Assembly: GCA_017634275.1 (NCBI GenBank)
Contig: JAGBNQ010000028.1
Location: forward strand, 1-55,438
DNA: 55,438 nucleotides
Origin: Ruminococcus sp.
GTDB taxonomy: Bacteria; Bacillota; Clostridia; Oscillospirales; Ruminococcaceae
Direction: 5' to 3'
How positions within the stretch are numbered: the stretch's first letter is position 1; each line of letters starts with the position of its first letter. Of this stretch, positions 11,513 to 49,693 are shown in pieces. The position numbers and the translations under genes were made by a program. Under the pieces are notes generated by a model that worked only from the letters and a program-made list of their open reading frames with translations, did not search any database and was not told the origin of the DNA.

Positions 11513-11513
<1 letters not shown>
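10785..11513 (-). CDS. HPr-kinase/PEP-carboxykinase-fold P-loop protein
   Basis: A 242-residue cytoplasmic protein related to the C-terminal catalytic domain of HPr kinase/phosphorylase. A Walker A loop, AKSGTGKST, is at 107-115, preceded by the FHGSVIAVDG strand (91-100), and followed by VNDDKP (131-136), the acidic metal-binding motif of this fold, and YGTPYNGKH (about 149-157). HPr proper needs a longer protein of about 310 residues with an N-terminal domain that is absent here, so the target is probably not HPr. Its ATG overlaps the beta-galactosidase stop by one base (TAATG), so it is translated from the lacZ message. The link to galactoside use is an inference from this coupling. Confidence 0.75.
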
Positions 11514-14542
<3,029 letters not shown>

Positions 14543-14626: not shown

Positions 14627-16804
14627 TTATTTTATAAATGCCTCATTTATCTTCAGCTCGCCCTTATAAATGCGCTCTCTGAGGTCATCAATAGGCATGG
14701 GCTTTGAAAAAAGATAGCCCTGTGCAAGCTCGCAGCCGATAGATGCAAGAAACTCAAACTGGTCCTTATCCTCAACGCCCTCGGTGAGAGAGCGCATTTC
14801 TATCTGCCTTGAAAGCTCGACTATATTGTTAAGGATAGGCTTGGATTTGGAATTCTCGGAAAAATCGGATAAGAACTTCATATCTATTTTCAAAACATCA
14901 AAATAATAATCCTTCAAAACGTTGAGAGAGGAATAGCCGCTGCCGAAATCATCAAGCCATACAGTATAGCCCGACTCCTTAAGCCTCTTCATAGCATCCT
15001 TAAGGGTATTTTGCTGGTCGGTAAGGGCGCTCTCGGTTATCTCAACATCAACAAAGCTTTTATCTACCGAAAACTCCTCAACATAGCCCGTCAGCACGCC
15101 GACTATATCGCAAAGCTCAAAATCAAGCCGCGAGAAATTGATAGACACGGGCGCAAAGGGCAGCTGCTCGTCCTTAGCCCTGCGGTATTCCTTGCAGACC
15201 TCTCTGATAATGCAGGAATCAAGCTTGTGAATCTGTCTGTATTCCTCCAGGACCTCGATAAACGCACCGGGCGGCAAAAGCCCGTAGGTAGGGTCAAGCC
15301 ACCTTGCAAGTGCCTCAAAGCCGACTATCGTCCTATCCTTAGTTGACACAACGGGCTGATAGTAGACCTTGATATAGCCTTTTTCTATTGCATTGTCGAT
15401 GTTATTTACGATATACTGCTTTAGCCTGAACTTTTCAGCAAGCGCCTTATCATAGAGCTTGAAGTTTAGCTCATAGTGTTTTTTTATGCTGCCACAGGCA
15501 AAGCGCGCTCTGTCACACGCGAGCGAGGGGTCTGTCTCGCCATCTGTAGGGCGGTAAGCGCCGCATTTCAGCTCTAAATGCACCTCGCGCTCAAAATCAT
15601 GTATCCTCTCGCATAGCTTTGAAATTATCCGATCTGCGCCCTCATACCTTGTAAGCACCACAAAGTGGTCATCCGAAAAGCGCGAAACAAGAGAATCCTT
15701 AAAGCTTTCATCTATCATATTCGCGGCACTCTTAAGCAAGTCATTTCCCTCATGAAAGCCGTATTTTTCGTTATAGTATTTAAAATTCACTATATCAAAG
15801 AACAGAAAAACAAAATCATCCTTATTCTCTGAGCTGTTACTTAGCAGCTTATCAGCCTCGGAGCGGAAATAGACCATATTATGTATCCCCGTAAGCTCAT
15901 CATAGGCGGATATCTTTGACAGGTAGGAATTAACGTCCTCAAGATCCTCCTCCTTGACAGCCTGCGAGAGCGTCTTATTATAATTGCTGATACAGAAAAG
16001 CAACGTGGAAAGCCACATTGTAAAGCCATTTATCTTGATGCCGTCGCCAAGCCCCGTCTTGACTGTTGAAAAATCAATTACACCCGTAAACTTGCCGACG
16101 GTGTTAAGGTCGATCATATCACTTATTTTATAGTAAAAGACAAGGTAAGACGCCGAAAGCACCAAAAAGCCGATATACGGCCGCCATACCAAAAGGCATA
16201 TAACAAAAAGCTCCATTGTAAGAAAGGTAAGTATCTGACCGCCGCTTTGGTAGCTGTTGGCGGAGATTATAATGCCAAAGTTTATACATTCAAATGAGAA
16301 TATATACATAACAGATAAGCTTTCCCATTTTTTATCCTCGCCGTTTTTTAACAGAACAAATGAGAAAACGATCATCGAAAGAGCCGAGAGCATTAAAATG
16401 ATATAGTTATGCAGATCGCTGCCCGTCTTTGTTTCGGGGGAATACTCATAGAGCATTTTGACCTCAAACGCGCAGACCGCCGCTGACATGATCATTACAA
16501 CAATTGCGGCAAAACGGCATTTTCTGAAATTATACAAAGCCCTGACTGCAAAAAGCAGCATAAGTAATCCCGAGCTTAAAAGCAAAAAATAATTGGAATA
16601 ATACTTTTCCGTCAGATGCCAAAACTGTGCCTGCAAATGGTTTTCATAGATAGTTCTTGTCATTCTGACTATCATCCAAAGCTCTAAAACTATAACTACT
16701 ACCGACATATAAATGCTTGCGCGCATATTTGTATCGTAAAAGTATTTTCTGACGTAATCGCTCTGCTTATCAAGGCCGAGCATTCTTTTTATCCTTTGGG
16801 TCAT
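14627..16804 (-). CDS. Membrane c-di-GMP phosphodiesterase: degenerate GGDEF plus intact EAL
   Basis: A 725-residue inner-membrane protein from the ATG at 16804, chosen because it follows AAAGGGGG by 9 nt while an upstream in-frame ATG at 16837 is only 7 nt from the predicted transcript start and lacks a site. Residues about 28-275 contain roughly seven membrane helices; about 295-450 is a GGDEF fold whose signature is RFSDDHF (375-381) instead of GGDEF, so no cyclase activity is expected; about 465-715 is an EAL domain with EALARW (497-502), the Asn in SINFSRL, EITES (588-592), DDFGSG (618-623), KID (639-641), EGVE and QGYLFSKP. All catalytic residues for hydrolysing c-di-GMP are present; the GGDEF may serve as a GTP sensor. 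Confidence 0.9.
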   Translation of the reverse strand: MTQRIKRMLGLDKQSDYVRKYFYDTNMRASIYMSVVVIVLELWMIVRMTRTIYENHLQAQFWHLTEKYYSNYFLLLSSGLLMLLFAVRALYNFRKCRFAAIVVMIMSAAVCAFEVKMLYEYSPETKTGSDLHNYIILMLSALSMIVFSFVLLKNGEDKKWESLSVMYIFSFECINFGIIISANSYQSGGQILTFLTMELFVICLLVWRPYIGFLVLSASYLVFYYKISDMIDLNTVGKFTGVIDFSTVKTGLGDGIKINGFTMWLSTLLFCISNYNKTLSQAVKEEDLEDVNSYLSKISAYDELTGIHNMVYFRSEADKLLSNSSENKDDFVFLFFDIVNFKYYNEKYGFHEGNDLLKSAANMIDESFKDSLVSRFSDDHFVVLTRYEGADRIISKLCERIHDFEREVHLELKCGAYRPTDGETDPSLACDRARFACGSIKKHYELNFKLYDKALAEKFRLKQYIVNNIDNAIEKGYIKVYYQPVVSTKDRTIVGFEALARWLDPTYGLLPPGAFIEVLEEYRQIHKLDSCIIREVCKEYRRAKDEQLPFAPVSINFSRLDFELCDIVGVLTGYVEEFSVDKSFVDVEITESALTDQQNTLKDAMKRLKESGYTVWLDDFGSGYSSLNVLKDYYFDVLKIDMKFLSDFSENSKSKPILNNIVELSRQIEMRSLTEGVEDKDQFEFLASIGCELAQGYLFSKPMPIDDLRERIYKGELKINEAFIK

Positions 16805-16850
16805 ACACTTAACCCCCTTTTCTATAAAAATAAACATACCTATTTATTAT

Positions 16851-18165: not shown

Positions 18166-21100
18166 TCAGTCCTTTTTGTTATAGAGCTTTTCGACATCTA
18201 TCGTGCCGTTGTCGATAAGCTTAAGCAGAACATCTACCATTTGCGGGTCAAACTGCTTGCCGCGTCCCTCGGCAAACTCGTTTCTTACATAGCCCATATC
18301 AAGCTGCTTACGGTAAACTCTGTTAGCCGTCATCGCGTCAAACGCATCGGCAACACCTATCAGTCTGCCGTAGATAGGAATTTCCTCGCCCTTCAGGCCT
18401 GAGTTATAGCCGCTGCCGTCATAGCGCTCGTGGTGATAAAGTGCGCCGTCAACAACGTGTTCAATAAGTGTAAAGTCCTTAAGTATCTCAGCACCCTTTG
18501 TAACGTGGGTCTTCATTATCTTATATTCATCATCGGTAAGGCGCGAGGGCTTATTCAGAATACTGTCGGGAATGCCTATCTTGCCGATATCGTGCAAAAG
18601 TGCGGCATTTCTGAGGTTCTCTATCTCCTTTTTATCCCAGCCAAGCTCTTTAGCCATCATGACCGCATATTCGGAAACGCGGAAAGAATGCCTGCTCGTG
18701 TTGCCGTCCTTAGCGTCCACCGTCTTAGCGATAGCAAGGATAGTTTCGTTGCCCATTTGTACTTGTTTCTCAGCAAGCTCTAACTGTGCCTTCTGTCTTT
18801 CAAGGATACGCTGTGTCTGCCGTCTTACGATAAACCATGTCAGCCAAGCTACCGCGAGCATCGCAACTGTTATCATATAAACGCTGAAATAGGAATTATC
18901 ATATATTTCCTTTTGCTTGCGTATCGGGAAAGACAGCTCGTCAATAGTATTTCCGTTGTTGTCAAGAACCTTTAAGCGGAATGTATAGTTTCCTACGGGG
19001 AGGTTTGTGTAGGTAATGCTGTCAAGCTCGCTGTTTGAAAGTACTGTCGGCTCTTTATCAAAGCCCTCTAAGATATAGCTTACAGTCGGGTCTTCGATCG
19101 AGTAATTGATCACCTCGGGGAAAAGCTCTATCCTGTTGACATTTCTTGCTATATCCGCAGGCTCGTAGCTGTTTACGCTGACATAGTCCTTATCAAGTCT
19201 TAAAGTAGTGAGTTTCATTTTGAATGACTCGGCATTTGAGAGGTAGTTTTTCATATCAAACATAAGAACGCCCGTGTCACAGCTTATATAAAGCCTGCCC
19301 TCATCATCGCAGTAATTCCATGAATTGGCGGTGATAGATGCGGTAAGTCCGCGCTTTGCATCAAGCTTTACATAGCTTAGCTTATCATTGGCGATAAGCT
19401 TTTGCTCGTCAACTACATATATTCCCGCACTTCCCAAAACGAAAAGCTTGCCGTTGCCGTCGCTCCAGAGGTCAAAGTTATTTGAATAAGGGAAGGATGA
19501 AAGCGTTTTTATCTCGCCCGATTTGTTTATATAGCAAAGGCCGTTGCTCGTTACGGCAAAAATGCCGCCGTCAGAGCTTTTTGCAAGCCTTAGTATAACT
19601 CCCGAGGAAAGCCCCTCGTTTCTTGTGATGTGACCTGTGACCTTTCCGTCTTTCAGGAAGAAAATACCATCACCGTCGCTGCCTGCCAAAAGGTCGCCGT
19701 CATCACCCTCAAGCAGGCAAAGCACAGCCGACGAGGTAAAGTCATCGCCGTAGCCGATACTTCCCGTGATTTTTAAGTCCTTGATAAAGGAAATGCCCGT
19801 ATCACCTGCCGAGGCAACAGTTCCGTCGCTCATCATAGCTGTTACTCTTGCCCAGTTGCCCGATGCGCCGTCTGTAGCATCAAAAACCTTTATCTGCCCC
19901 CCGGGTGAGCATACCACAAGCCCCTTGCCATAGCTGCTTACCCATAGGTCGCCGCCCTTATCGGTCTTTATGCAGCGGATACGAACACCGTCAAGCATTT
20001 GTGTGAGCTTGTTTTCAATTAGCTCGCCGCTGTTTTCATCAAGTATCTTAAGCCCCTTGTCCGTTCCTACATACATTTTTCCGTCAGAGCGCTCTACTGC
20101 GTTTACTACCGAATTCTCAATGCCGTAGGTCGTGAAAATATCGGTAAAAACAGATGCCGACATCTTCAAAAGCCCGAGCCTTGATGATGTAAGCCATATA
20201 TTTCCCTGATAATCCACCTCAACGTTGTCGATAGAGTTATTGAAAGAATTGGTGTTTATACGGAAAAAGCTGCCTTCTTTGTCAAAATAGCCCACACCGT
20301 TGTCAGCGCAGATAAACACCTTCCCGTCACTGCCCTTATCAATTTCGTTTATATAGGACAGATCGCCGCATTCAAGGGTCTGCGTCTGCGAGAGCTTGCC
20401 GCCAGAAACGTCATACACCCTTACGAAATTATCGCTCATTCCCGCATAGAGCTTATCGCCTATAAACTGCGCGCAGGCAAATGAATGCTCATCATCACCG
20501 AGATTCAATGAATCAAGTATCTGCTTATCCCTCATAAGGTAAAGTGTTCCGCCTGCTGTTACACAGGCAGCGTTAAAGCCGCTTGTGACCACGCAGTCTC
20601 CTGTGCCTACATCTGAAAGCTCACCCACAACAGTAAGCTTATTATCAGCGTCCATAGTAAGTATCATAAGCGAGCCTGCCGTACCTACATAGTAAAGCCC
20701 GTCATCAGTCTGAGAAACACTTCTTACCGAGTTTGAGCTTAGGCCGCCCTCTTCATCAAGGGTAGCTATCACCTTTTCGTCCTTGGCAACAGCAAGGCCG
20801 TTATCGTTTGTGCCTATCCAAAGTCTGTCCTTAGGGTCAACATAAAGTCTGTTTACGTTTTTAACAGTCTTGTATTCATCCTCTATCTTAAACTCCTTGC
20901 CTGCATAGCGGTAAAGGCCTGCGTATGTACCTATCCAAAGCACACCGTCAGAGGTCTGCTCGATATCGTTAGCCTCGCCGCATTCAAGCCCGTCTGCTTT
21001 GCTGTAGACTGTCTGAATATACGAATCATACTCGGATACCGCCGCGGCTTTCGGCATGCTGTCTGAACTCTCCTGCTTTGCGCTTACGGGCAGGCTGCTT

Positions 21101-21729
21101 GCAAGAGATAGTGTAACTACCGCCGCCGCAATAACACTTACAGCCTTGCCTGCCTTATCGGAAAGCTCTGCGCTGTCATTATTCTTGATAAGAGAGCCGA
21201 AAAGCTTGATAAACACATAAAGCAGCGCCAGCACAAGCACCTTATCAAGGAAATCGACATAGAACTGCCCTATCACCCTGCAAAGAAACAGAGGAACATT
21301 TCTCTCATAAAGGTAATCAATAACGCCGTTGCCCCAGATATTCCCCGTCCTGCCCTTCATAGTAAGCAGATTGAGCGGAACGGAGATGATGACAGACACA
21401 AGCGTTACCATAACGCTTACCGAGATAGTGCCAAAGAGCGTATCAAAGCGCTTTTTTCTTGCACTAAGGCCTACAATAATGCCTATGGCCGCAGAAGTTA
21501 ACGTATAAAAAAGTGCATTGGTATCATTTAGTATACCGTAAAGCCCGTTTCCGATAACACCTACCACCGCGCCGCATACGGGCCCGAAGGCATAGGCTGA
21601 CAGCACAGTGCCGAATGAATCAGCCCACACGGGCAGGTCAAATGTCTCCGACATCACCCTGCCGAAGTAATTGAGCGCTATACATACAAGCATCAGTATC
21701 ACAGCAAAGAGCTTTCTTTTATTGGTCAT
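18166..21729 (-). CDS. ECF-S-like membrane domain / beta-propeller sensor / HD-GYP phosphodiesterase fusion
   Basis: A 1187-residue membrane signalling protein. The ATG at 21729 is chosen over a GTG at 21738 because AGGGG lies 8 nt upstream of it. Residues about 5-185 contain six hydrophobic helices resembling an ECF transporter substrate-binding (S) component, including the AYAFGPVCGAVVGVIGNGLYG segment. A further signal-like helix lies at about 200-222. Residues about 235-870 are repeated WIGT-type Reg_prop blades of a two-component-style beta-propeller, and about 880-970 a Y_Y_Y domain (VGNYTFRLKVLDNNGN). A helix at about 978-1000 and a short coiled coil lead to an HD-GYP domain with HDIGKIG (about 1046), HHERYDGSGY (about 1099) and GVADAFDAMT, all complete. 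It should degrade c-di-GMP in response to an external ligand. Confidence 0.88.
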   Translation of the reverse strand: MTNKRKLFAVILMLVCIALNYFGRVMSETFDLPVWADSFGTVLSAYAFGPVCGAVVGVIGNGLYGILNDTNALFYTLTSAAIGIIVGLSARKKRFDTLFGTISVSVMVTLVSVIISVPLNLLTMKGRTGNIWGNGVIDYLYERNVPLFLCRVIGQFYVDFLDKVLVLALLYVFIKLFGSLIKNNDSAELSDKAGKAVSVIAAAVVTLSLASSLPVSAKQESSDSMPKAAAVSEYDSYIQTVYSKADGLECGEANDIEQTSDGVLWIGTYAGLYRYAGKEFKIEDEYKTVKNVNRLYVDPKDRLWIGTNDNGLAVAKDEKVIATLDEEGGLSSNSVRSVSQTDDGLYYVGTAGSLMILTMDADNKLTVVGELSDVGTGDCVVTSGFNAACVTAGGTLYLMRDKQILDSLNLGDDEHSFACAQFIGDKLYAGMSDNFVRVYDVSGGKLSQTQTLECGDLSYINEIDKGSDGKVFICADNGVGYFDKEGSFFRINTNSFNNSIDNVEVDYQGNIWLTSSRLGLLKMSASVFTDIFTTYGIENSVVNAVERSDGKMYVGTDKGLKILDENSGELIENKLTQMLDGVRIRCIKTDKGGDLWVSSYGKGLVVCSPGGQIKVFDATDGASGNWARVTAMMSDGTVASAGDTGISFIKDLKITGSIGYGDDFTSSAVLCLLEGDDGDLLAGSDGDGIFFLKDGKVTGHITRNEGLSSGVILRLAKSSDGGIFAVTSNGLCYINKSGEIKTLSSFPYSNNFDLWSDGNGKLFVLGSAGIYVVDEQKLIANDKLSYVKLDAKRGLTASITANSWNYCDDEGRLYISCDTGVLMFDMKNYLSNAESFKMKLTTLRLDKDYVSVNSYEPADIARNVNRIELFPEVINYSIEDPTVSYILEGFDKEPTVLSNSELDSITYTNLPVGNYTFRLKVLDNNGNTIDELSFPIRKQKEIYDNSYFSVYMITVAMLAVAWLTWFIVRRQTQRILERQKAQLELAEKQVQMGNETILAIAKTVDAKDGNTSRHSFRVSEYAVMMAKELGWDKKEIENLRNAALLHDIGKIGIPDSILNKPSRLTDDEYKIMKTHVTKGAEILKDFTLIEHVVDGALYHHERYDGSGYNSGLKGEEIPIYGRLIGVADAFDAMTANRVYRKQLDMGYVRNEFAEGRGKQFDPQMVDVLLKLIDNGTIDVEKLYNKKD

Positions 21730-22168
21730 ACTTTGCACCCCTGTTTCTATAATTTATAATATTCATTATTCCTTTTATAGCAGATCGTTAAAAAAACGGG
21801 AAAAACCGCCCCTGATAGAGGCGAAAATTGCTAAAAAGAGCAAAGTAGCTTTTGAAGCATTTCTTTATGTGTATGGAAGTTCTGCTAAACCATTTAGTAA
21901 TGTCTCGATGCCTGAATAATACGAATAACTGTCATACTCGGTATTATTTGGTTCTCCGAGATAATGCTAGCTATCTTCTTTTCATAGCTTTTCTCCATTA
22001 TAAACATACTTTTAAAAAAACAGATGTGGTTGATTGTTTATGAATATTTCCTTTATATTATAACACATTATTTTCATTTTGTACAGAGGAAAATAAACAA
22101 AAAAGAGAAACCGTCATTATCTGCCTTTAGCAAAAAATGCCGATTTCTCAAATAATACTTAGTTAAGC
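21730..22168. other. Intergenic region without a recognised gene
   Basis: About 440 bases upstream of the HD-GYP gene and downstream of the ACT gene. Short open frames exist on the plus strand but have no ribosome site and no recognisable product. An 8-bp inverted repeat AATAATAC/GTATTATT (21915-21922 with 21941-21948) is present. The HD-GYP promoter probably lies here but no convincing -35/-10 pair was found. It could be the remnant of a decayed gene. Confidence 0.4.
22100..22149 (-). terminator. Probable terminator of the ior-paaK operon
   Basis: On the minus strand GAGAAATCG pairs with CGGTTTCTC (22149-22141 with 22113-22105, one G-T pair) around a long loop, followed by TTTTTTG, 20 nt past the ACT gene stop. 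Confidence 0.55.
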
Positions 22169-22600
22169 TCAGATCTTAGCCATATCCTCCTGAGAAAGGA
22201 GCTTAAAGCCGCCCTCTGTAAGGGCTGTTACCGCCTCCTCGTTATTATCGACACGAAGAATAAGGCAGGCATTATTTTCCGAGGGGTTAAGGAAAGCCGA
22301 ATACATATACTCAACGCTTATATTAGCCTTATAAAGAGTATCCATTATTCCCGAAAGGCCGCCCGGCTTATCCTCGGCAATTACCGCAAGAACATTTGAC
22401 TCGGTAACTACCGCATCTTCCTTAAGGCACTGCTTTGCCTTGTCGATATCGCTCACAATCAGCCTTAAGATACCGAAATCCTTAGTATCCGCTACCGATA
22501 TAGCTCTGATATTAACACCGCTTTTTGCAAGAATGCCCGTAAGCGCCGAAAGTCTTCCGGGCTTATTCTGCGCAAAGACCGATAACTGCTTTACTGTCAT
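22169..22600 (-). CDS. Tandem ACT-domain protein
   Basis: A 143-residue cytoplasmic protein made of two ACT domains (about 3-70 and 71-140), each with the beta-alpha-beta-beta-alpha-beta pattern and a conserved glycine/proline turn (QNKPGRLSALTGIL; EDKPGGLSGIMDTL). ACT domains bind amino acids and regulate enzymes. Stand-alone proteins of this form are regularly encoded beside phenylacetate-CoA ligase and indolepyruvate oxidoreductase, as here, and likely sense an aromatic amino acid. Last gene of the operon, 15 nt after paaK, with a good AAAAGGGGG site. Confidence 0.9.
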   Translation of the reverse strand: MTVKQLSVFAQNKPGRLSALTGILAKSGVNIRAISVADTKDFGILRLIVSDIDKAKQCLKEDAVVTESNVLAVIAEDKPGGLSGIMDTLYKANISVEYMYSAFLNPSENNACLILRVDNNEEAVTALTEGGFKLLSQEDMAKI

Positions 22601-22615
22601 AATAAATACCCCCTT

Positions 22616-23923
22616 TTACACAAGCTTTCTCTTATCTATTACTCTTACAGCCTTGCCCTCCGAGCGCGGGATAGACTTAGGCTCAACAAGGCTTATCTTA
22701 GCCTTTATGCCGAGAATCTGAACGATATCGGCAGAGAGTTTCTTTTCAAGCGCCTCGATACTCTTGATAGTGTCATCAAACATTCCGTCAGAAAGCTCTA
22801 CCTTTATCTCAAAGGTGTCTGTAGTGCCAACTCTGTCAACAACTATCTGATAGTTAGGTGTAGCGCCGAAGTCCTTAAGCAGAACTGTTTCTATCTGTGA
22901 CGGGAATACGTTAACGCCCTTGATTATGAGCATATCGTCAGATCTGCCCATAGGCTTGCACATCTTGACAAGCGTTCTGCCGCACTTGCACTTTTCTCTG
23001 GTAAGCACGCAGATATCCCTTGTTCTGTAGCGAAGAAGGGGAAAAGCCTCTTTGGTTATGCTTGTAAAAACAAGCTCACCCTTTGAGCCCTCGGGCAGCA
23101 CCTCGCCCGTATCGGGGTCGATTATCTCGGCAATAAAGTTATCCTCATTTATATGCATACCCGTCTGGCATTCGCACTCAAACGCCACTCCGGGACCTGA
23201 TGTTTCGGTAAGGCCGTAGATATCGTATGCCTTTATACCCAGGCTCTTTTCTATCGACTTTCTCATTTCCTCAGTCCACGGCTCTGCACCGAAGATACCT
23301 GCCTTAAGCGGTATCTGCTCGGGGGTCAGCCCCATTTCCTCGGCAGTTTCACCGATATATGCCGCATAAGAGGGTGTGCAGCAAAGTATAGTGGAGTTTA
23401 AGTCCATCATAAACTGTATCTGTCTTTCGGTATTTCCCGACGACATAGGAAGTGTAAGGCAGCCTACCTTATGCGAGCCGCCGTGCAGCCCTGCACCGCC
23501 CGTAAAAAGCCCGTAGCCGTATGCTACCTGACAAACATCGTCCTTTGTGCCGCCTGCTGCGGTGATAGCACGGGCAACGCAGTCCTCCCACATATCAACG
23601 TCATTCTGTGTGTAGAATGCCACAACTCTCTTGCCCGTAGTTCCGCTTGTGGACTGTATCCTTACGCACTCGGAGAGCGGCTTTGCAAGCAGCCCGTAGG
23701 GGTAAGCATCTCTAAGGTCTGCCTTTGATAAGAAGGGCAGCTTGTGAAGGTCATCAACACCCTTGATATCATCGGGGGTAACGCCCTTTTCGTCCATAAG
23801 CTTTTTGTAATACTCCACGTTTTCATAAACGTGCCTGACCTGAGCTACAAGTCTTTCGCTTTGCAGCGCTTTCATCGACTCGTAGTCCATAGTCTCGATC
23901 TTCTCGTTCCAATACCTTGCCAA
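22616..23923 (-). CDS. paaK: Phenylacetate-CoA ligase
   Basis: A 435-residue cytoplasmic acyl-adenylate-forming ligase that makes aryl-acetyl-CoA from the aryl acetate, ATP and CoA. The phosphate-binding loop is QSTSGTTGKRVVAFYT (about 91-106), the second adenylate motif YGLTETSGPG (about 236-245), followed by the C-terminal domain with RSDDMLIIKGVNVFPSQIE (about 327-345), the hallmark of the PaaK family. Length is standard. Placed directly after iorB: indolepyruvate/phenylpyruvate oxidoreductase yields aryl-acetyl-CoA, and PaaK interconverts it with the free acid. In rumen ruminococci phenylacetate is used reductively to build aromatic amino acids, so the pathway may run in that direction. 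Start preceded by AGGAGGTTTG. Confidence 0.93.
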   Translation of the reverse strand: MARYWNEKIETMDYESMKALQSERLVAQVRHVYENVEYYKKLMDEKGVTPDDIKGVDDLHKLPFLSKADLRDAYPYGLLAKPLSECVRIQSTSGTTGKRVVAFYTQNDVDMWEDCVARAITAAGGTKDDVCQVAYGYGLFTGGAGLHGGSHKVGCLTLPMSSGNTERQIQFMMDLNSTILCCTPSYAAYIGETAEEMGLTPEQIPLKAGIFGAEPWTEEMRKSIEKSLGIKAYDIYGLTETSGPGVAFECECQTGMHINEDNFIAEIIDPDTGEVLPEGSKGELVFTSITKEAFPLLRYRTRDICVLTREKCKCGRTLVKMCKPMGRSDDMLIIKGVNVFPSQIETVLLKDFGATPNYQIVVDRVGTTDTFEIKVELSDGMFDDTIKSIEALEKKLSADIVQILGIKAKISLVEPKSIPRSEGKAVRVIDKRKLV

Positions 23924-23992
23924 TTTTCAAACCTCCTGTTTTAATAGATATATACTAAGTCTTATTGCAGGATATGTAGTAAGACCAAATAT

Positions 23993-24571
23993 TTATACAG
24001 CCGCCTGTGCGCCCAGAGCAAAGGCCTTCTTATTAAGCTCTAAGAATTTTGCAGGCACGCAGGCCTCAAGTGCCGACTGCCATACGCTTTCATCAAAGTC
24101 CATTTTCTTGGACACTACGCCCATAAGCACAACGTTGGATGCCTTTGATGTTCCTGCCTGCTCGGCAAGGGTAAGCGCATCAACTGCGGTCACATCTATT
24201 CCCTTGGCTGTCAGCTTGCCGATAATATCCTCGGGGTAAACAGCCGCACCCGTGATAACGGGCATAGGGTCGATAGACTGAGTTGAGGTAACGATATGGC
24301 CGCCCTTTTTGAGAAACTCGACATACCTTGCCGCCTCTAACTGTTCAAAGCTGATAATTATATCAGCCTCGCCCTTCTGAACCACGGGAGAATACACCTT
24401 GTCGCCGTACTTTACATAAGTAACGACCGAGCCGCCGCGCTGGCTCATTCCGTGTACCTCAGAGAGCTTTACATCATAACCCTGACTGAGCAGGACGTTT
24501 CCTATTATTCGGCTCGCAAGCAGTGAACCCTGACCGCCTACGCCGACTATCATTATTGATTTAGTTTCCAT
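23993..24571 (-). CDS. iorB: Indolepyruvate:ferredoxin oxidoreductase, beta subunit
   Basis: A 192-residue cytoplasmic subunit, equivalent to the gamma domain of pyruvate:ferredoxin oxidoreductases. The glycine-rich start IMIVGVGGQGSLLASRIIGN (about 6-25) and HGMSQRGGSV (about 40-49) are diagnostic. With IorA it oxidatively decarboxylates aryl pyruvates to aryl-acetyl-CoA with ferredoxin as electron carrier, or the reverse. Normally iorB directly follows iorA; here the two are separated by about 1.0 kb holding three small membrane-protein genes. The ATG has AAGGAG at 9 nt. It is followed 69 nt later by paaK. Confidence 0.93.
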   Translation of the reverse strand: METKSIMIVGVGGQGSLLASRIIGNVLLSQGYDVKLSEVHGMSQRGGSVVTYVKYGDKVYSPVVQKGEADIIISFEQLEAARYVEFLKKGGHIVTSTQSIDPMPVITGAAVYPEDIIGKLTAKGIDVTAVDALTLAEQAGTSKASNVVLMGVVSKKMDFDESVWQSALEACVPAKFLELNKKAFALGAQAAV

Positions 24572-24614
24572 TTATCACAACTCCTTAGTTAATTGTTGTA
24601 TCAACAAATAAGTA

Positions 24615-25055
24615 TCAATTGTCTATGATACCCAGCTTGAAAAGCATATAGAATCCGCCGCCTATGGTGAACAGATAGCCAAGTGCGAGGTCTTTATAGA
24701 AAGAACTCTTTTCTCCCAGTGTTTCAAGCAGATCTATTATCTTGCCATAACAATCTCCGAACGACATTGTGCCGTCAAGCTTATTATAAAGCCAAAGACC
24801 ATAGCTTATCCTTGTAGAAAAATACACCGCTGCGATAAGGAGCACACAGCATATCACAAATCCACCGATGCTCATACCATTTCCGAACAGATAGTATCCG
24901 CCGATAACACCAACGCACATAGCGATGCCGCATATAAATGCCATCTTCCCGAAATAGCCCAGCAGACACCACAGACCCATTGCGAGTACTGCTCCGATAA
25001 ACGCACCTATAATGCCCAAAGCCATTTTGTCGTCTTTATCAAATTCAAAATCCAC
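24615..25055 (-). CDS. Small multi-pass membrane protein inside the ior operon
   Basis: A 146-residue protein from the GTG at 25055, which has AAGGAG 9 nt upstream and does not overlap the previous gene; a longer reading from the ATG at 25082 would overlap it by 14 nt and has no site. Four hydrophobic helices are visible (about 11-28, 31-52, 55-77 and 122-141), with an acidic N-terminus (MDFEFDKDDK) and a soluble loop between helices 3 and 4. I do not recognise the family. It sits between the 85-residue membrane protein and iorB on the same transcript, so a role with the oxidoreductase or with uptake of its substrates is possible but only inferred from position. Confidence 0.6.
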   Translation of the reverse strand: MDFEFDKDDKMALGIIGAFIGAVLAMGLWCLLGYFGKMAFICGIAMCVGVIGGYYLFGNGMSIGGFVICCVLLIAAVYFSTRISYGLWLYNKLDGTMSFGDCYGKIIDLLETLGEKSSFYKDLALGYLFTIGGGFYMLFKLGIIDN

Positions 25056-25068
25056 CTTGTTTTTCTCC

Positions 25069-25326
25069 TTAAGAGTTATCATTTTGTCTGAATTTTTTTA
25101 TTTCGTCGTTTTCCTTTTTATCCCTGTATCTTGCATACACGATAACAGCCGATATAATTATCATCAGACTTACCGGCGATGTGATAAGAAGTGACGTAAA
25201 CACTTGTGCATAGTCGATGCCCGGCTCCTCTGTCGCTCTTGCAGCGCTTATAAAACAAGCCATGATAAGTATCATCTGCAATATCAAAAGTAAAACAAAC
25301 ATACATAAATAAAAATTCTTTTTCAC
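25069..25326 (-). CDS. Two-helix small membrane protein, copy 2
   Basis: An 85-residue protein with a GTG start at 25326 (GGAG 9 nt upstream). It has two hydrophobic helices (about 5-28 and 43-64) joined by a polar loop and ends in a charged tail. It is clearly related to the protein encoded just upstream: both start MKK, and both share a SL-x-x-x-P-x-S segment entering helix 2 followed by a basic K/R-x-(K/R)-D exit. The ribosome site and start region lie in a 23-nt sequence repeated in front of the other copy. Function unknown. Confidence 0.6.
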   Translation of the reverse strand: MKKNFYLCMFVLLLILQMILIMACFISAARATEEPGIDYAQVFTSLLITSPVSLMIIISAVIVYARYRDKKENDEIKKFRQNDNS

Positions 25327-25340
25327 TGCTTTATTCTCCG
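25318..25340. repeat. 23-nt direct repeat, copy A (other copy 25589-25611)
   Basis: The 23 bases at 25318-25340 recur at 25589-25611 with a single mismatch, at the first base of the start codon (GTG versus TTG). Each copy spans the end of one gene (codons for Gly-Glu-stop), the GGAG ribosome site and the start of the next gene. Spacing is 271 bases, exactly one small gene. Confidence 0.85.
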
Positions 25341-25597
25341 GTTTTATCTTTGCTGTTAGTGTTTTTGATCAGTCTTAGGCTTTGTATTTTTTTATTATCT
25401 ATCGAATCTTTAAGCTTTATAAAAGACAAAACCGCAACAACTATCAGTATTATGCTTGCAGGAATTGATTCTATAAGTGAGCGTGCGATATCACCAGTAG
25501 TTATTTCATTACGAAAGCCTTGCCAAAATGCCAGTCTGATGATACCATATTCCAGCATAACACAAATAATAAAAACAAATAAATACCGCTTTTTCAA
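25331..25597 (-). CDS. Two-helix small membrane protein, copy 1
   Basis: An 88-residue protein from a TTG at 25597, chosen because the sequence GGAGAATAAAGCA-TTG is the same as the GGAGAATAAAGCA-GTG in front of the next gene, and because the alternative ATG at 25618 lies within the end of iorA with no site. Two helices (about 5-24 and 43-62) flank a polar loop (TTGDIARSLIESIP). The stop is followed by 4 nt before the paralogue's start. Not a family I recognise; the pair looks like a tandem duplication. Confidence 0.55.
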   Translation of the reverse strand: MKKRYLFVFIICVMLEYGIIRLAFWQGFRNEITTGDIARSLIESIPASIILIVVAVLSFIKLKDSIDNKKIQSLRLIKNTNSKDKTGE

Positions 25598-25611
25598 TGC
25601 TTTATTCTCCG
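25589..25611. repeat. 23-nt direct repeat, copy B (other copy 25318-25340)
   Basis: The partner of 25318-25340. This copy covers the last codons of iorA, so the repeat joins the iorA 3' end to the first small membrane-protein gene. Confidence 0.85.
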
Positions 25612-27329
25612 ATAGCACCGAGCTTGCACATTTCCTTGCAGATTCCGCAGCCTACGCAAAGGGTATGGTCTATCTCCATTTTACCGTTATGTATGCTTAT
25701 TGCAGGGCAGCCTATCTTCAGGCACTGCTTGCAGCCTACGCACTTTTCCTTATCGCATTTGAGCGGAGGGTTGTGCTTGACGTATTTGAGCAGCGCGCAG
25801 GGTCTTCTTGAAATAACTACTGAAGGGCCGTCCTTTTCAAGCTCTTCCTTGATTATCTTCTCTGTTTCTGCCATATTGTAGGGGTCTGCTACCCTTACGC
25901 TCTTTATGCCGATAGCGTGACAAAGCTCCTCTAAATTAACAGCCGCGGCAGGGTCGCCCTTTAGGTTCTTGCCTGTTGTCGGGTTCTGCTGATGGCCCGT
26001 CATACCCGTGATAGAGTTATCAAGTATTATCGTTACTGTATTTGATGCGTTGTAAGCTACATTCACAAGCCCTGTCATACCGCTGTGCATAAATGTCGAG
26101 TCACCTATAACAGCAACGCTCTTTTTCTCGCTCTGCTCACCGCGAACCTTGTTATATCCGTGAAGTGCCGAGATAGATGCGCCCATGCAGATAGTAGTAT
26201 CCATAGCGCAAAGCGGTGCGGCAGCGCCGAGAGTATAGCACCCTATATCGCCCGAAACATAAACGCCGAGCTTAGAGAGGCAGTAGAAAAGGCCTCTGTG
26301 CGGGCAGCCTGCACACATAGCAGGCGGACGGGGCGGAACCGGCTCATCAAAGGTCATGACCTCTGCCTTCTCGCCGAGTATCTTCTCACGAACGCCCGAC
26401 TGGAATATCTCGCCGCACATTCCGAAAAGCTCCTTGCCTATTACCTCGATGCCGAGCGATTTGCAATGGTTCTCGATTATCGGGTCAAGCTCCTCTATAA
26501 CATAGAGCTTATCTACCTTAGCCGCAAAATCCTTTATAATCTTTGTAGGCATAGGAACGACGATACCGAGCTTTAAGTAGCTCGCCTTGTCGCCAAGTGC
26601 CTCCTTAGCGTACTGATAGCAAATTCCGCTTGTGATAACGCCTATTTTTGTATCGTTTATCTCTACCCTATTGAGCGGCGAGGTTTCACTAAACTCCGCA
26701 AGCCTTGCGAGCTTGTCCTCAACTATCGGGTGACGCTTGATAGCGTTGCCGGGCATCATGACAAATTTGCCTATATCCTTTTTGTATTCCTTAAGCCCGA
26801 TATCTGCCCTGTCGCAAAGCTCAACTATCGACTGAGAATGTGCAACTCTTGTAGTCATTCTAACGATAACGGGTGTATCGAACTGCTCTGAAAGCTCAAA
26901 AGCCGCCTTTGTGAAATCCTTGCACTCCTGCGAATCGGAGGGCTCTACCATGCACACCTTTGATGCGATAGCGTGATGACGTGAATCCTGCTCATTCTGA
27001 GAGGAATGCATTCCGGGGTCATCGGCAACACATATTACCATACCTGCATTAACGCCCGTATAGCCTGCTGTGTAGAGCGGATCTGCCGCAACGTTTAAGC
27101 CGACGTGTTTCATTCCGCAAAAGCTCCTCGCACCTGCGATAGACGCACCGAGAGCCGCCTCCATAGCAACCTTTTCGTTGGGTGCCCACTCTGCGTACAT
27201 CTCATCATATTTTGCTGCCTCCTCAGTGACCTCTGTAGAAGGCGTACCCGGGTAGGAGGATACAAATGTGCAGCCTGCCTCATAAAGACCTCTTGCAAAG
27301 GCTGCATTTCCAAGCATAAGCTTGTTCAT
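25602..27329 (-). CDS. iorA: Indolepyruvate:ferredoxin oxidoreductase, alpha subunit
   Basis: A 575-residue cytoplasmic subunit carrying thiamine diphosphate and two [4Fe-4S] clusters. The pyrimidine-binding domain is at the N-terminus (GLYEAGCTFVSSYPGTPSTE, about 14-33), the central domain follows, the TPP-binding domain contains MCAGCPHRGL, GDIGCYTLG and GDSTFMHSG (about 335-420), and the C-terminal ferredoxin domain has CVGCKQCLKIGCP and CVGCGICKEMC (about 532-568). It cleaves indolepyruvate, phenylpyruvate and related 2-oxoacids to the aryl-acetyl-CoA. Length matches the family. First gene of the operon, transcribed from a promoter at 27410-27438 with a 73-nt leader that contains a small CGGCG/CGCCG hairpin. 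Confidence 0.95.
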   Translation of the reverse strand: MNKLMLGNAAFARGLYEAGCTFVSSYPGTPSTEVTEEAAKYDEMYAEWAPNEKVAMEAALGASIAGARSFCGMKHVGLNVAADPLYTAGYTGVNAGMVICVADDPGMHSSQNEQDSRHHAIASKVCMVEPSDSQECKDFTKAAFELSEQFDTPVIVRMTTRVAHSQSIVELCDRADIGLKEYKKDIGKFVMMPGNAIKRHPIVEDKLARLAEFSETSPLNRVEINDTKIGVITSGICYQYAKEALGDKASYLKLGIVVPMPTKIIKDFAAKVDKLYVIEELDPIIENHCKSLGIEVIGKELFGMCGEIFQSGVREKILGEKAEVMTFDEPVPPRPPAMCAGCPHRGLFYCLSKLGVYVSGDIGCYTLGAAAPLCAMDTTICMGASISALHGYNKVRGEQSEKKSVAVIGDSTFMHSGMTGLVNVAYNASNTVTIILDNSITGMTGHQQNPTTGKNLKGDPAAAVNLEELCHAIGIKSVRVADPYNMAETEKIIKEELEKDGPSVVISRRPCALLKYVKHNPPLKCDKEKCVGCKQCLKIGCPAISIHNGKMEIDHTLCVGCGICKEMCKLGAIGE

Positions 27330-45240: not shown

Positions 45241-45432
45241 TTATTTTAGTGTGACCTTCCACCCTGCCAGCTTTTGCTGAATGCGGATAACGTCCGCGAT
45301 ATTTACCTTTCCGTCACCGGTAACGTCTGATGCGCTTTCATCTATCGTTACCTTCCAGCCTGCCAGCTTTTGCTGTATCCTGATAACGTCTGCGATATTC
45401 ACCTTGCCGTCACCGGTAGCATCACCCGATAT
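45241..45432 (-). repeat. Duplicated dockerin segment
   Basis: Two tandem units of about 100 bases encode nearly identical 25-residue calcium-binding segments. The DNA of the two copies is also close, differing mainly at third codon positions, as expected of an old internal duplication kept by selection. Confidence 0.75.
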
Positions 45433-46263
45433 ACGCTTTTCATCTAAGGGGATAAAGGTAAAGCCGTTGTTATTTGCGTATTCTTCGGCAGCCGTGCCGG
45501 AGTAGCCGTAGATAGTGAAGCCGTTCATTTTATTCAAAGCCGAATCATAGCCTAATGCATAATCGCCTATTTGTGTTACCTTCTTTGGTATAATAATGCT
45601 TTTGAGCTTTGAGCATTCACAAAAGGCATATTGTTCAATAGCTTTTACATTTTCAGGTATCTTTATGTTTTCAAGCGATGTACAAAAAGCAAATGCCGAC
45701 CATTCAATATCGGTAACAGTTTCGGGCAGTTCTATTTCTTTTAGGCTGCTGCAACTATAAAACGCCTTGTTTTCTATCTTTTTGAGATTTTTAGGCAGCT
45801 TGACCTTTTCAAGTGACGTACAGCCTTCAAAAGCGCCCCATGAGTTATCCTCGTCCAAAGACGGTATCTCGGTGATAGTGTCGGGGAAGGTTATCTCCTT
45901 AAGATTTTTTAGGTATGAAAATGCATACATACCGACATTTGTGACAGTATCGGGCACGGTAATGGCGGTTATCTTTGAAAGTGATTCACTCCTGTATTTA
46001 AGGTTTGCCATAGAAAATGATTCATCGGCTAAAGATGTTACCTTTTTGCCGTTAAGTGTCTTGGGAATCACCACATTTCCGCCATTTCCGATATAATTTG
46101 TTATCTCCGCCGTCCCGTCCGAAAGCACGGTATATTCATAATCACCATATGTCAGCGCGCTTGCAGAAATAGCCGTATCAAACGTTAATGCTCCCTCGGG
46201 CAGAGCCGCCGACGTGCCGAAAACAAGCGCCAATGATGCTAAAAATGATACTATCTTCTTCAT
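45241..46263 (-). CDS. Secreted BspA-like leucine-rich repeat protein with type I dockerin
   Basis: A 340-residue exported protein. The signal peptide spans about 1-20 with further hydrophobic residues to about 36. Residues about 70-265 are BspA-type LRR_5 repeats (blocks such as AFEGCTSLEKVKLPKNLKKI). Residues about 277-340 form a dockerin with two calcium-binding segments, each G/V-T-G-DGKVNIADVIRIQQKL-AGWKV, the type I dockerin duplication. Dockerins plug into cohesins of a scaffoldin, so this protein would be part of a cellulosome. The LRR part has no catalytic function and is more likely a binding or adhesion module. Monocistronic: ends in a strong terminator; upstream of it lies an (AT)n tract at 46307-46325. 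Confidence 0.9.
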   Translation of the reverse strand: MKKIVSFLASLALVFGTSAALPEGALTFDTAISASALTYGDYEYTVLSDGTAEITNYIGNGGNVVIPKTLNGKKVTSLADESFSMANLKYRSESLSKITAITVPDTVTNVGMYAFSYLKNLKEITFPDTITEIPSLDEDNSWGAFEGCTSLEKVKLPKNLKKIENKAFYSCSSLKEIELPETVTDIEWSAFAFCTSLENIKIPENVKAIEQYAFCECSKLKSIIIPKKVTQIGDYALGYDSALNKMNGFTIYGYSGTAAEEYANNNGFTFIPLDEKRISGDATGDGKVNIADVIRIQQKLAGWKVTIDESASDVTGDGKVNIADVIRIQQKLAGWKVTLK

Positions 46264-48361: not shown

Positions 48362-49693
48362 TTATTTCATAAATGTAAACTCCAAAAGTTCAAAAAGCGG
48401 TTTGATATCAAAATACGGTTCAGTCCAGCCCTCTACACCGTGAGTGGGTCTGAAATATATAGCGTGTCTGCCCGTTATCGCCTTGACCTTGCCCTTATAG
48501 ACACCGTCTGAAAGGCCGACATTTACCGAGCCTATGACCTCGCCGTTTTCGTAATCATCAATGATAACGTCTACTCTTGAATAAACGCCCTGCCCCCTAA
48601 CCTTAAGGGCGAGGGTATATTCTGAGCTTGAAAAATCATCACCGAAATCAAAATATTTATAGCCGATAATCGCATCCTTTTTGATGCCGACAATTGGGCG
48701 CGTGAAAATATCAAGCTCGGTAACAAAGCAGCCGCCCTTTAACACGCAGGCTATCTCCGCAGGGGTGGGCTTATAGGGGTCAAGTGCCTTTTCAAAGCCC
48801 AGTGAAGTCATCTCAACCGGCGGTATAGTGCCGTCGGGAAGGATCTCAACGGGCTCGACACACGCGCGGCGCGACATTATTGTGTTATTTGTCATTCTAT
48901 GGTAGAAGATATACCACTGACCGTTTACCTGCATAAGCGAGCCGTGATCGTTTCCGCCGGGGTAATCGACAGAGTTATCGACAATATAGCCCTTATATTC
49001 AAAGGGGCCTTTGGGACTGTCACTTATCGCATAGGCAAGGCGGCTGCCCTTTCTCGGGGAATAGATAAGGTAATATTTCCCGTTTATCTTTCTCGGGGAG
49101 CTTGCCTCGAAAAAGCGCTGCTCCTCGGGGGCGTTTTCTGTATCGTCGATAACGGGGCGCATATGTGAGCCCTTTATTATCTCATACATATTATCGGGGG
49201 CAATCTCATTCATATTACTTTCTGTAAAGCCGTAGTAGATATACACCTTACCGTCATCATCAACAAGCACGCCTGCATCATTATAAACACCGTCATCGCC
49301 TGCATCGGCCTCATCATACTTATAGCGTGAAAGCAGCTTAAACGGCCCCTCGGGCTTATCGGCAACACCTACGCAGCCCTTTGAGCCGACTATATAAGCA
49401 TAGAGGTAATACTTCCCGTCCTTTTCGACAACATCGGGGGCATAAAGCTCGCTTTGCGTCCACTCCTTTGTATCGGAGGGGCGGTCGGGCTTATCGGCTG
49501 TTGAAAAGCTGACACCCGAGCATTTGAAATTATTAAGGTCATCAAGGTCTGCGTACCACACCTTTAGCTTATAATCGCAGAATTTATCGCAGGCGGCACG
49601 GTCATGCGAGCCGTAGAGGTATAATCTATTCCCAAAAACACGCGGTTCACCGTCGGGGATATATTCCCAGAGCGGCAGGATAGGGTTTGGCAT
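48362..49693 (-). CDS. GH43 glycosidase, cytoplasmic, with beta-sandwich domain
   Basis: A 443-residue enzyme without a signal peptide. The five-bladed propeller of GH43 is at about 1-300: the base Asp is in YIPDGEPRVF (about 11-20), the pKa-setting Asp in YAPDVVEKDGKYYLYA, and the acid Glu in FFEASSPRKINGKYYLIYS. The C-terminal domain (about 320-443) looks like a CBM6-type beta-sandwich (SSSEYTLALKVRGQG, and GRHAIYFRPTHG). GH43 enzymes release arabinose, xylose or galactose from oligosaccharides; the substrate cannot be fixed. Lacking a signal peptide it should act on imported oligosaccharides. 17 nt after the AraC gene, AAGGAG 10 nt before the ATG. Confidence 0.9.
   Translation of the reverse strand: MPNPILPLWEYIPDGEPRVFGNRLYLYGSHDRAACDKFCDYKLKVWYADLDDLNNFKCSGVSFSTADKPDRPSDTKEWTQSELYAPDVVEKDGKYYLYAYIVGSKGCVGVADKPEGPFKLLSRYKYDEADAGDDGVYNDAGVLVDDDGKVYIYYGFTESNMNEIAPDNMYEIIKGSHMRPVIDDTENAPEEQRFFEASSPRKINGKYYLIYSPRKGSRLAYAISDSPKGPFEYKGYIVDNSVDYPGGNDHGSLMQVNGQWYIFYHRMTNNTIMSRRACVEPVEILPDGTIPPVEMTSLGFEKALDPYKPTPAEIACVLKGGCFVTELDIFTRPIVGIKKDAIIGYKYFDFGDDFSSSEYTLALKVRGQGVYSRVDVIIDDYENGEVIGSVNVGLSDGVYKGKVKAITGRHAIYFRPTHGVEGWTEPYFDIKPLFELLEFTFMK

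Follow-up and report, generated by a model that had tools for sequence, protein, structure and literature searches.

A Ruminococcus gene joining an ECF S-component-like domain to a propeller-HD-GYP receptor: a widespread architecture and a candidate nucleoside sensor

The minus strand of a 55,438-nucleotide contig of Ruminococcus sp. (JAGBNQ010000028.1, assembly GCA_017634275.1; this whole analysed stretch is the window below) carries one long gene whose product starts with a membrane domain resembling the S component of energy-coupling factor (ECF) transporters. It continues with a signal-peptide-like segment, an extracellular Reg_prop propeller, a Y_Y_Y domain, a transmembrane (TM) helix and an HD-GYP domain (Table 1). 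This fused architecture is real, widespread and, as far as our literature search reaches, undescribed: the open-licence literature in PubMed Central gave no work combining HD-GYP with a two-component regulator propeller, and none of the titles and abstract openings listed there described a combination of S component, propeller and HD-GYP. Tentatively, and with somewhat less than an even chance of being right, we read the protein as a one-component phosphodiesterase receptor for cyclic di-GMP (c-di-GMP) that would respond to nucleosides or purines and would be made as a precursor.

The gene is a single open frame of 1187 codons, from an ATG at 21729 to a stop ending at 18166, with an in-frame GTG at 21738, three codons 5' of the ATG. 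Pfam recognised Reg_prop in four stretches (73.3 bits, cut-off 20.4) and Y_Y_Y (43.1 bits, cut-off 26.6), both above threshold, as well as HD_5 at residues 1004-1163. One chain bearing a propeller and a complete HD-GYP domain had been described in a first-pass annotation of this DNA; the three families indeed share one frame, and the description has to be amended at the GYP motif, which reads GYN. An extra hydrophobic segment at about residues 197-217, not mentioned in that annotation, separates the S domain from the propeller. In the first search, which covered 61 genomes, three further one-frame fusions (genomes G002, G005 and G008) showed the same domain order, with full-length identities to the window protein of 77, 71 and 47%. 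Because this order recurs in these three genomes and in 70 of the 80 named loci described below, the fusion is no assembly artefact.

The proposal that the N-terminus is an ECF S component was borne out by profile searches. Residues 1-187 matched the NCBIfam model ECF_S_CD3073 (NF045596) with 70 bits against an equivalog cut-off of 180, and the domain is therefore kin to CD3073, not the same protein; all 69 family members given to the profile search matched this model. The FolT-family S-component model TIGR04518 (33 bits, cut-off 60) stayed below and PF12822 (29.9 bits, cut-off 30.7) just below threshold, and PF07155 (5.3e-6, 27.0 bits) exceeded its cut-off of 26.7. The ECF_S_CD3073 model scored best. 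PF07694 (5TM-5TMR_LYT) was also matched by residues 1-187 (1.9e-6, 28.0 bits, cut-off 24.6) and, below that cut-off, by the whole chain (23.8 bits). An ordinary 5TMR sensor was rejected for its lack of helix H0 and of the NXR motif here: helix 1 starts within the first ten residues, leaving no space for H0, and N20-x-x-x-R24 stands in place of NXR as defined in the available text of PMC11109136 (both by eye). The S-domain alignment comprised the window and 68 of 73 candidate references; a PDB profile search with these 69 domains returned no S-component structure and one chance match (E 2.5).

Within the window's family, the S-domain profile matched 66 of 396 genomes, and in 24 genomes the match lay in an open frame of at least 1100 residues. 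A collection of named genomes held 113 stretches encoding a relative, the best 80 of which were kept (the 80 named loci). S domain, propeller and HD-GYP share one frame in 70 of them (50 Bacillota, 19 Spirochaetota, 1 without phylum assignment); the remainder are one fusion of S, propeller, histidine kinase and receiver, five loci with S and propeller only and four with S only. Eight of the nine partial loci end at contig ends (L050, L063, L078, L103, L105, L107, L119, L125), and L120 is split into two frames. The arrangement had been thought specific to gut ruminococci, a notion that the survey overturned: the 80 loci include 29 Lachnospiraceae and 22 Spirochaetota, and these relatives in other families and in Spirochaetota rule out a fusion unique to Ruminococcus. 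By word count, a gut compartment is named in 27 of the 80 locus titles and 19 more carry RUG codes, presumably those of rumen genome sets.

Further layouts occurred in the window's family: S, propeller, HD-GYP and receiver (6 loci); S, propeller and kinase with or without receiver (4 loci, one ended by a contig end); S, Cache-like domain and HD-GYP without propeller (4 loci, L138, L139, L140 and L167, of about 700-730 residues, in which the Cache label is by eye and Pfam gave HD only for L138); and a single S-kinase fusion (L143). Split pairs were present in six loci (L013, L128-L132). Here a separate propeller-kinase-receiver gene follows immediately on an S gene for some 200-240 residues and starts with an ordinary-looking N-terminal signal peptide (by eye); the two open frames overlap in five loci and nearly abut in L129. 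Three S-propeller-kinase-receiver fusions (L134, L135, L137) adjoin a gene with receiver and HD-GYP domains, where the same signal may reach HD-GYP via phosphotransfer.

A quick single-method tree of 101 S domains, including 49 of the 93 fused ones, had 35 of its 98 inner branches starred and 42 open. A starred branch (95) set apart the propeller-linked S domains, fused or split; the stand-alone L142 and L166, on long branches, fell with them. The Cache-type fusions grouped with L015 and L016, a position suggesting more than one recruitment of S domains into receptors.

The segment after the S domain has the make-up of a signal peptide. It was analysed in 92 non-redundant propeller fusions, i.e. 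99 minus 7 that were at least 90% identical to others; the window and the first-found L010-L012 are not among the 92. Helix 6 is followed by a mostly basic stretch, a hydrophobic core and a variable segment in which small residue-any-Ala is the steady feature, and 22 to 110 residues lie between helix 6 and the next hydrophobic core. The net charge before the core is at least +2 in 77 of the 92, and 85 have an A-x-A-type site at offsets 13 to 24 from the core start (90 over a wider span, a count without shuffle control). Shuffles of each segment's own residues gave a mean of 51.9 sites per 92 and at most 64 in 500 shuffles; such sites were found in 8 of 87 last TM helices and 105 of 459 S-domain helices. 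Of the 86 scored sites, 65 have V or A at -3 and 36 have Glu at +1. The window protein reads LPVSA-KQ, Ala217 being invariant and -3 being V or A in the four full-length proteins aligned, the window's included. Segment length (TM7 median 16, TM8 median 19) is not decisive on cleavage. Judging from this pattern, an S gene was probably fused to a secreted receptor that retained its signal peptide, and signal peptidase I may still cut at the A-x-A-type site. Internal cleavage would be an unusual feature; the cytochrome b/c1 fusion FbcH is a precedent for an internal signal peptide. Synthesis of the propeller half from an internal start was rejected as a rule, as linker start codons occur in 59 of the 92 and a Shine-Dalgarno-like motif in 5.

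Clues to the ligand came from the S domain itself. In the 93 fused S domains, W35, D37, N61, Y75, N120, N130, W132, G133, D162 and K163 are each kept in 84 to 93, and these residues would line a pocket. D37, N61, D162 and K163 are also common among stand-alone S genes. As signature we used W35, N120 (S allowed), N130, W132 (F allowed) and G133, excluding four S loci ended by contig ends from the counts. Nearly all fused S domains (91 of 93) have it, as do 5 of the 6 split and 9 of the 41 stand-alone ones; the 5 propeller-less fusions all lack it. In the tree, the stand-alone genes sharing it lie on the opposite side from the propeller-linked domains. All nine signature-bearing stand-alone genes have an EcfT-like gene nearby (24 of 41 stand-alone genes overall). 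A nucleoside-phosphorylase-like neighbour accompanies seven of the nine versus 4 of the 32 others (Fisher p 0.0004, a value that overstates independence, the phosphorylase-flanked loci being related and not independent events); at loci of equal nominal flank the counts are 6 of 8 versus 1 of 22. Two of these neighbours match the uridine phosphorylase model TIGR01718 (1.5e-60 and 5.5e-62), below its cut-off and thus at family level, and L186, L190 and L017 have neighbours assigned, likewise at family level, to the ribonucleoside hydrolases. L172 is a true CD3073 equivalog with a TudS-related desulfidase neighbour scoring above cut-off; similar desulfidase-like genes lie beside L171 and L173-L179 (by eye). 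The common thread of these predicted functions is nucleoside or nucleobase salvage, not fibre.

The other clue is a partner gene. Among 69 downstream genes examined, 53 lie on the same strand within 60 nucleotides, frequently with start/stop overlap, and the product has about 400 residues. Pfam assigned all four partners submitted to the Bmp/PnrA-like family (8.8e-34 for L060). Such a BMP gene accompanies 72 of the 74 non-redundant HD-GYP fusions with room for it, adjacent downstream in 68 and upstream, one gene apart, in 4; L048 and L049 have none. L149, whose fused gene is apparently identical to that of L049, comes from a genome (G306) with only a weak PF02608 match, in a 633-residue frame. 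No BMP gene was present beside the six receiver-bearing HD-GYP fusions or beside three of the four kinase-receiver fusions, and the split loci yielded none. An alignment of 53 partners (52 of 70 BMP references and that of L012, which also has a BMP gene beside the fusion) was used to inspect the binding site. The partner seems to be TM-anchored, a lipobox-like motif being present in 2 of the 53. Its nearest PDB chains are 3s99 (5.2e-45) and AtzT (1.1e-40), and 16 of the 53 also weakly match a putative B6 transporter binding protein. The available text of PMC6834077 lists the guanine contacts of AtzT and describes adenine modelled in the site of 3s99. When these contacts were mapped onto the partners by hand via the HMMER alignment, Tyr45, Trp194 and Glu165 were each kept in 50 of the 53 and Ser97 in 44, and the positions of Asn218 and Asn220 were occupied by His (50 of 53) and Asp (46 of 53), as in 3s99.

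Since a purine-binding-type gene stands beside most relatives, the receptor is more likely to sense nucleosides than plant fibre, and a nucleoside or purine ligand is our best-supported guess. For the fibre or oligosaccharide signal put forward in the first-pass annotation no support was found, in an analysis that included no dedicated carbohydrate-gene survey; both the operon partner and the S-domain signature point to purines or nucleosides.

Other genes accompany some of the relatives. In eight Spirochaetota loci (L100:6931-7953, L094, L096, L102, L114, L121, L126, L127) the gene immediately before the fusion encodes about 340-370 residues and has a similar, membrane-like start; that of L100 had no Pfam match, and four of these loci (L100, L102, L114 and L121) have their BMP gene ahead of this extra gene. 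In L082 and L098 the gene upstream of the fusion encodes a solute-binding protein of family 3 (PF00497; 7.7e-24 and 8e-23), with similar starts by eye in L072, L073, L092 and L115.

At the output end, H1014, H1046, D1047, K1050, H1075, H1099, H1100 and D1128 are invariant among 48 aligned proteins (the window's and 47 of 66 full-length references). We take these eight to be the metal and catalytic residues. Asn1010 of the window protein aligns with a Glu of PDB 4mcw. In the window, a neighbouring gene (14630-16837, minus strand) encodes a GGDEF+EAL protein with a degenerate GGDEF motif (SDDHF, by eye) and an intact EAL; a second phosphodiesterase may thus be encoded near the HD-GYP gene.

Put together, one precursor would be translated that contains an S-component binding module, an internal signal peptide and a complete propeller-Y_Y_Y-TM-HD-GYP receptor, and an extracellular nucleoside- or purine-like ligand would be its signal. 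In most relatives the membrane-anchored BMP-family protein of the next gene would bind the purine outside and press on the propeller, for which LuxP, a binding protein that acts on the receptor LuxQ, is a precedent. The HD-GYP dimer, a predicted phosphodiesterase, would thereby be altered through the single helix. In the window's genus, S domain and propeller would have to sense without a BMP partner. A more elaborate version, possible but on the whole improbable, is a pro-receptor: signal peptidase I would cut the product into a free S component and a propeller-HD-GYP receptor, and the two pieces would come together again, in most species joined by the TM-anchored purine binder, as a tripartite nucleoside sensor that controls c-di-GMP.

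Several observations weigh against this picture, besides the relatedness of the phosphorylase-flanked loci. Seven of the 92 relatives lack the cleavage-type site in the searched offsets, and L077 and L085 lack any; an Ala-rich composition by itself yields about 52 of 92 sites, and the hydrophobicity of the segment is close to that of the last TM helix (1.47 versus 1.54). Among the BMP partners, 51 of 53 have Gly where AtzT has Asn169. No PF02608 match came from the genomes G000 (59% complete), G002 and G005 (99% complete), and neither the window copy nor L011 (in G005), both outside the 74-fusion set, has a BMP gene next door (gene list and genome search). As no BMP gene was found in the members of the window's genus that were tested, the main ligand clue is indirect for the window protein; lineages without the gene would thus either do without the partner or no longer have the function. 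The window motif is HHERYDGSGYN, with Asn in place of the Pro of GYP, the consensus of the 48 aligned proteins being GYP. At the helix-1 docking positions, the literal AXXXA motif does not tell the groups apart (12 of 93 fused, 5 of 41 stand-alone S domains); small residues at both 14 and 18 are found in 4 of 93 versus 30 of 41 if Pro and Cys are counted, and in 2 of 93 versus 5 of 41 with A, G and S only. The window protein itself has Ala18 (with L14), and EcfT family genes were detected in all four genomes tested, the window's included.

These last points also sustain a rather unlikely rival, in which the S domain has stayed a transporter subunit, docking on a shared ECF module and importing a nucleoside, the propeller-HD-GYP part senses something else, and fusion or cleavage only couples expression. 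EcfT in the four genomes, a signature identical to that of nucleoside-linked ECF S components, the existence of split pairs, an AXXXA motif no rarer in fused than in stand-alone domains and Ala18 in the window all fit it. S-component-fold domains as receptor domains are already published, and 5TMR receptors, with a predicted S-component fold, lack the helix-1 AXXXA docking motif and carry large residues instead (Partipilo and Slotboom, available text of PMC11109136). Large residues at that motif mark receptors according to the same publication. The fused S domains have L, I, V, M or F at position 18 in 69 of 93 cases, the stand-alone ones in 9 of 41 and the nine signature bearers in none; A, G or S occupy it in 17 of 93 versus 30 of 41, in a register that rests on the alignment. 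The large residue at position 18 speaks against the transporter model and favours a receptor role, though the helix-1 evidence as a whole is mixed. Loss of AXXXA as proof of that role was discarded, since only position 18 and the Pro14 of many stand-alone S genes produce the contrast. No EcfT/EcfA module was recognised by eye beside the fused gene in the gene list, EcfT beside fused loci not having been searched for.

Unlikely, and placed after the transporter model, is the proposal of the first-pass annotation, a fibre-sensing switch whose chain stays uncleaved and whose c-di-GMP breakdown is set directly by a small molecule bound in the S domain or by an oligosaccharide bound in the propeller. 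The single frame, free of internal stops, is real and agrees with it, as do the resemblance of the propeller to PDB 4a2l, a sensor kinase that presumably has a carbohydrate link, and the GH43, dockerin and beta-galactosidase-like (by eye) genes of the window. Direct coupling within one chain is weakened by the signal-peptidase-like site, by a linker of 22-110 residues that opposes rigid coupling and by relatives encoded as two genes; the fibre signal is opposed by the purine- and nucleoside-directed clues from partner and signature. Least probable, and in our view quite doubtful, is an S domain that serves as mere membrane anchor or folding aid for inserting the large extracellular receptor, its pocket a relic. 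In two lines, with propeller and with Cache-like domain, S-like domains do precede receptors that look complete without them, but W35, D37, N130, W132, D162 and K163 are 97-100% conserved in 92 fusions from two phyla, which is unlike a relic.

Table 1. Features of the fused gene in the window (positions on the contig; residues of the 1187-residue protein)
Feature	Residues	Position	Strand	Evidence
Whole fused gene: S-component domain, signal-peptide-like segment, propeller, Y_Y_Y, TM, HD-GYP	1-1187	18166..21729	(-)	open frame, Pfam
ECF S-component-like membrane domain	1-187	21169..21729	(-)	NF045596 1.5e-19; TIGR04518 3.4e-8; PF12822 6.6e-7
Signal-peptide-like segment; putative signal peptidase I site after Ala217 (LPVSA/KQ)	195-217	21079..21147	(-)	sequence and alignment
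Extracellular Reg_prop propeller region, ends approximate	~234-850	19180..21030	(-)	PF07494 2.8e-21; PDB 4a2l 2.5e-25
Y_Y_Y domain	880-931	18937..19092	(-)	PF07495 3.9e-11
Transmembrane helix after propeller	~948-968	18826..18888	(-)	by eye from sequence
HD-GYP domain	~1004-1176	18202..18720	(-)	PF13487 (HD_5) 2.3e-37; PDB 4mcw 1.8e-48

Elsewhere in the window, genes for a dockerin/BspA-LRR protein (45241-46263), a GH43 enzyme (48362-49693) and a beta-galactosidase-like protein (11513-14512, by eye) suggest a host that uses plant polymers. Upstream of the fusion, ACT, PaaK-like and indolepyruvate oxidoreductase-like genes (22169-27329, minus strand, by eye) are found, likewise at L010 and L011 (G002 and G005). 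The gap from these aromatic-acid-type genes to the fusion is about 130 and 80 nucleotides in G002 and G005 and 440 in the window; in the window's genus, the receptor may share a transcript with genes of aromatic acid metabolism. No known RNA family reached its gathering score in the window, and five other loci gave two tRNAs only.

If our reading is true, the connection already published from ECF S components to receptors would reach c-di-GMP phosphodiesterases too, a new layout places a transporter domain, a signal peptide and a full receptor within one frame, and nucleosides or purine bases become a ligand class to test for an uncharacterised receptor family of gut Lachnospiraceae, Oscillospiraceae and Treponema. 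The pro-receptor version, if true, would mean that two phyla of gut bacteria share a c-di-GMP receptor assembled from a transporter subunit and a binding protein of ABC type. Split and fused versions offer a natural experiment on the need for covalent linkage, and the genus without a BMP gene one on the need for the binding protein.

The architecture extends two kinds of receptor that are already known, those with an S-component fold and those with a propeller. Like the 5TMR-LYT family (LytS type, YpdA, BtsS; PF07694; available text of PMC11109136), the window protein carries an N-terminal S-component-related membrane domain on a signalling protein; unlike that family it has neither helix H0 nor NXR (by eye), scores better for the CD3073 and FolT models, and has its output beyond a signal-peptide-like segment and an extracellular propeller instead of directly after helix 6. 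Outputs named in that publication include GGDEF, EAL, kinase and chemotaxis domains, and HD-GYP and beta-propeller are absent from its main text. The ECF S components of the CD3073 group (NF045596) belong to the same sequence family, and 9 of 41 tested share all ten conserved-position letters; they are, however, stand-alone genes with no receptor attached and usually with A or G at helix-1 position 18. Known Reg_prop/Y_Y_Y receptors (PDB 4a2l and 4a2m; Xanthomonas GdpX2 and GdpX3, available text of PMC6637768) likewise combine an extracellular propeller and Y_Y_Y with a signalling output, whereas the output here is HD-GYP in place of histidine kinase or GGDEF and an S-component domain precedes. 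The partner gene of most relatives belongs with the BMP/PnrA purine binders (AtzT 6pi5, 3s99, BmpD 6SHU) and keeps most purine contacts; in contrast to them, the partner seems TM-anchored and sits with a receptor, and it was not found in the members of the window's genus tested. Finally, the dCache_1 purine sensors (available text of PMC11245519) also tie purine-type sensing to c-di-GMP turnover, a likeness that holds if the ligand guess is right; they do so with another extracellular domain and, in the material examined, with no S component.

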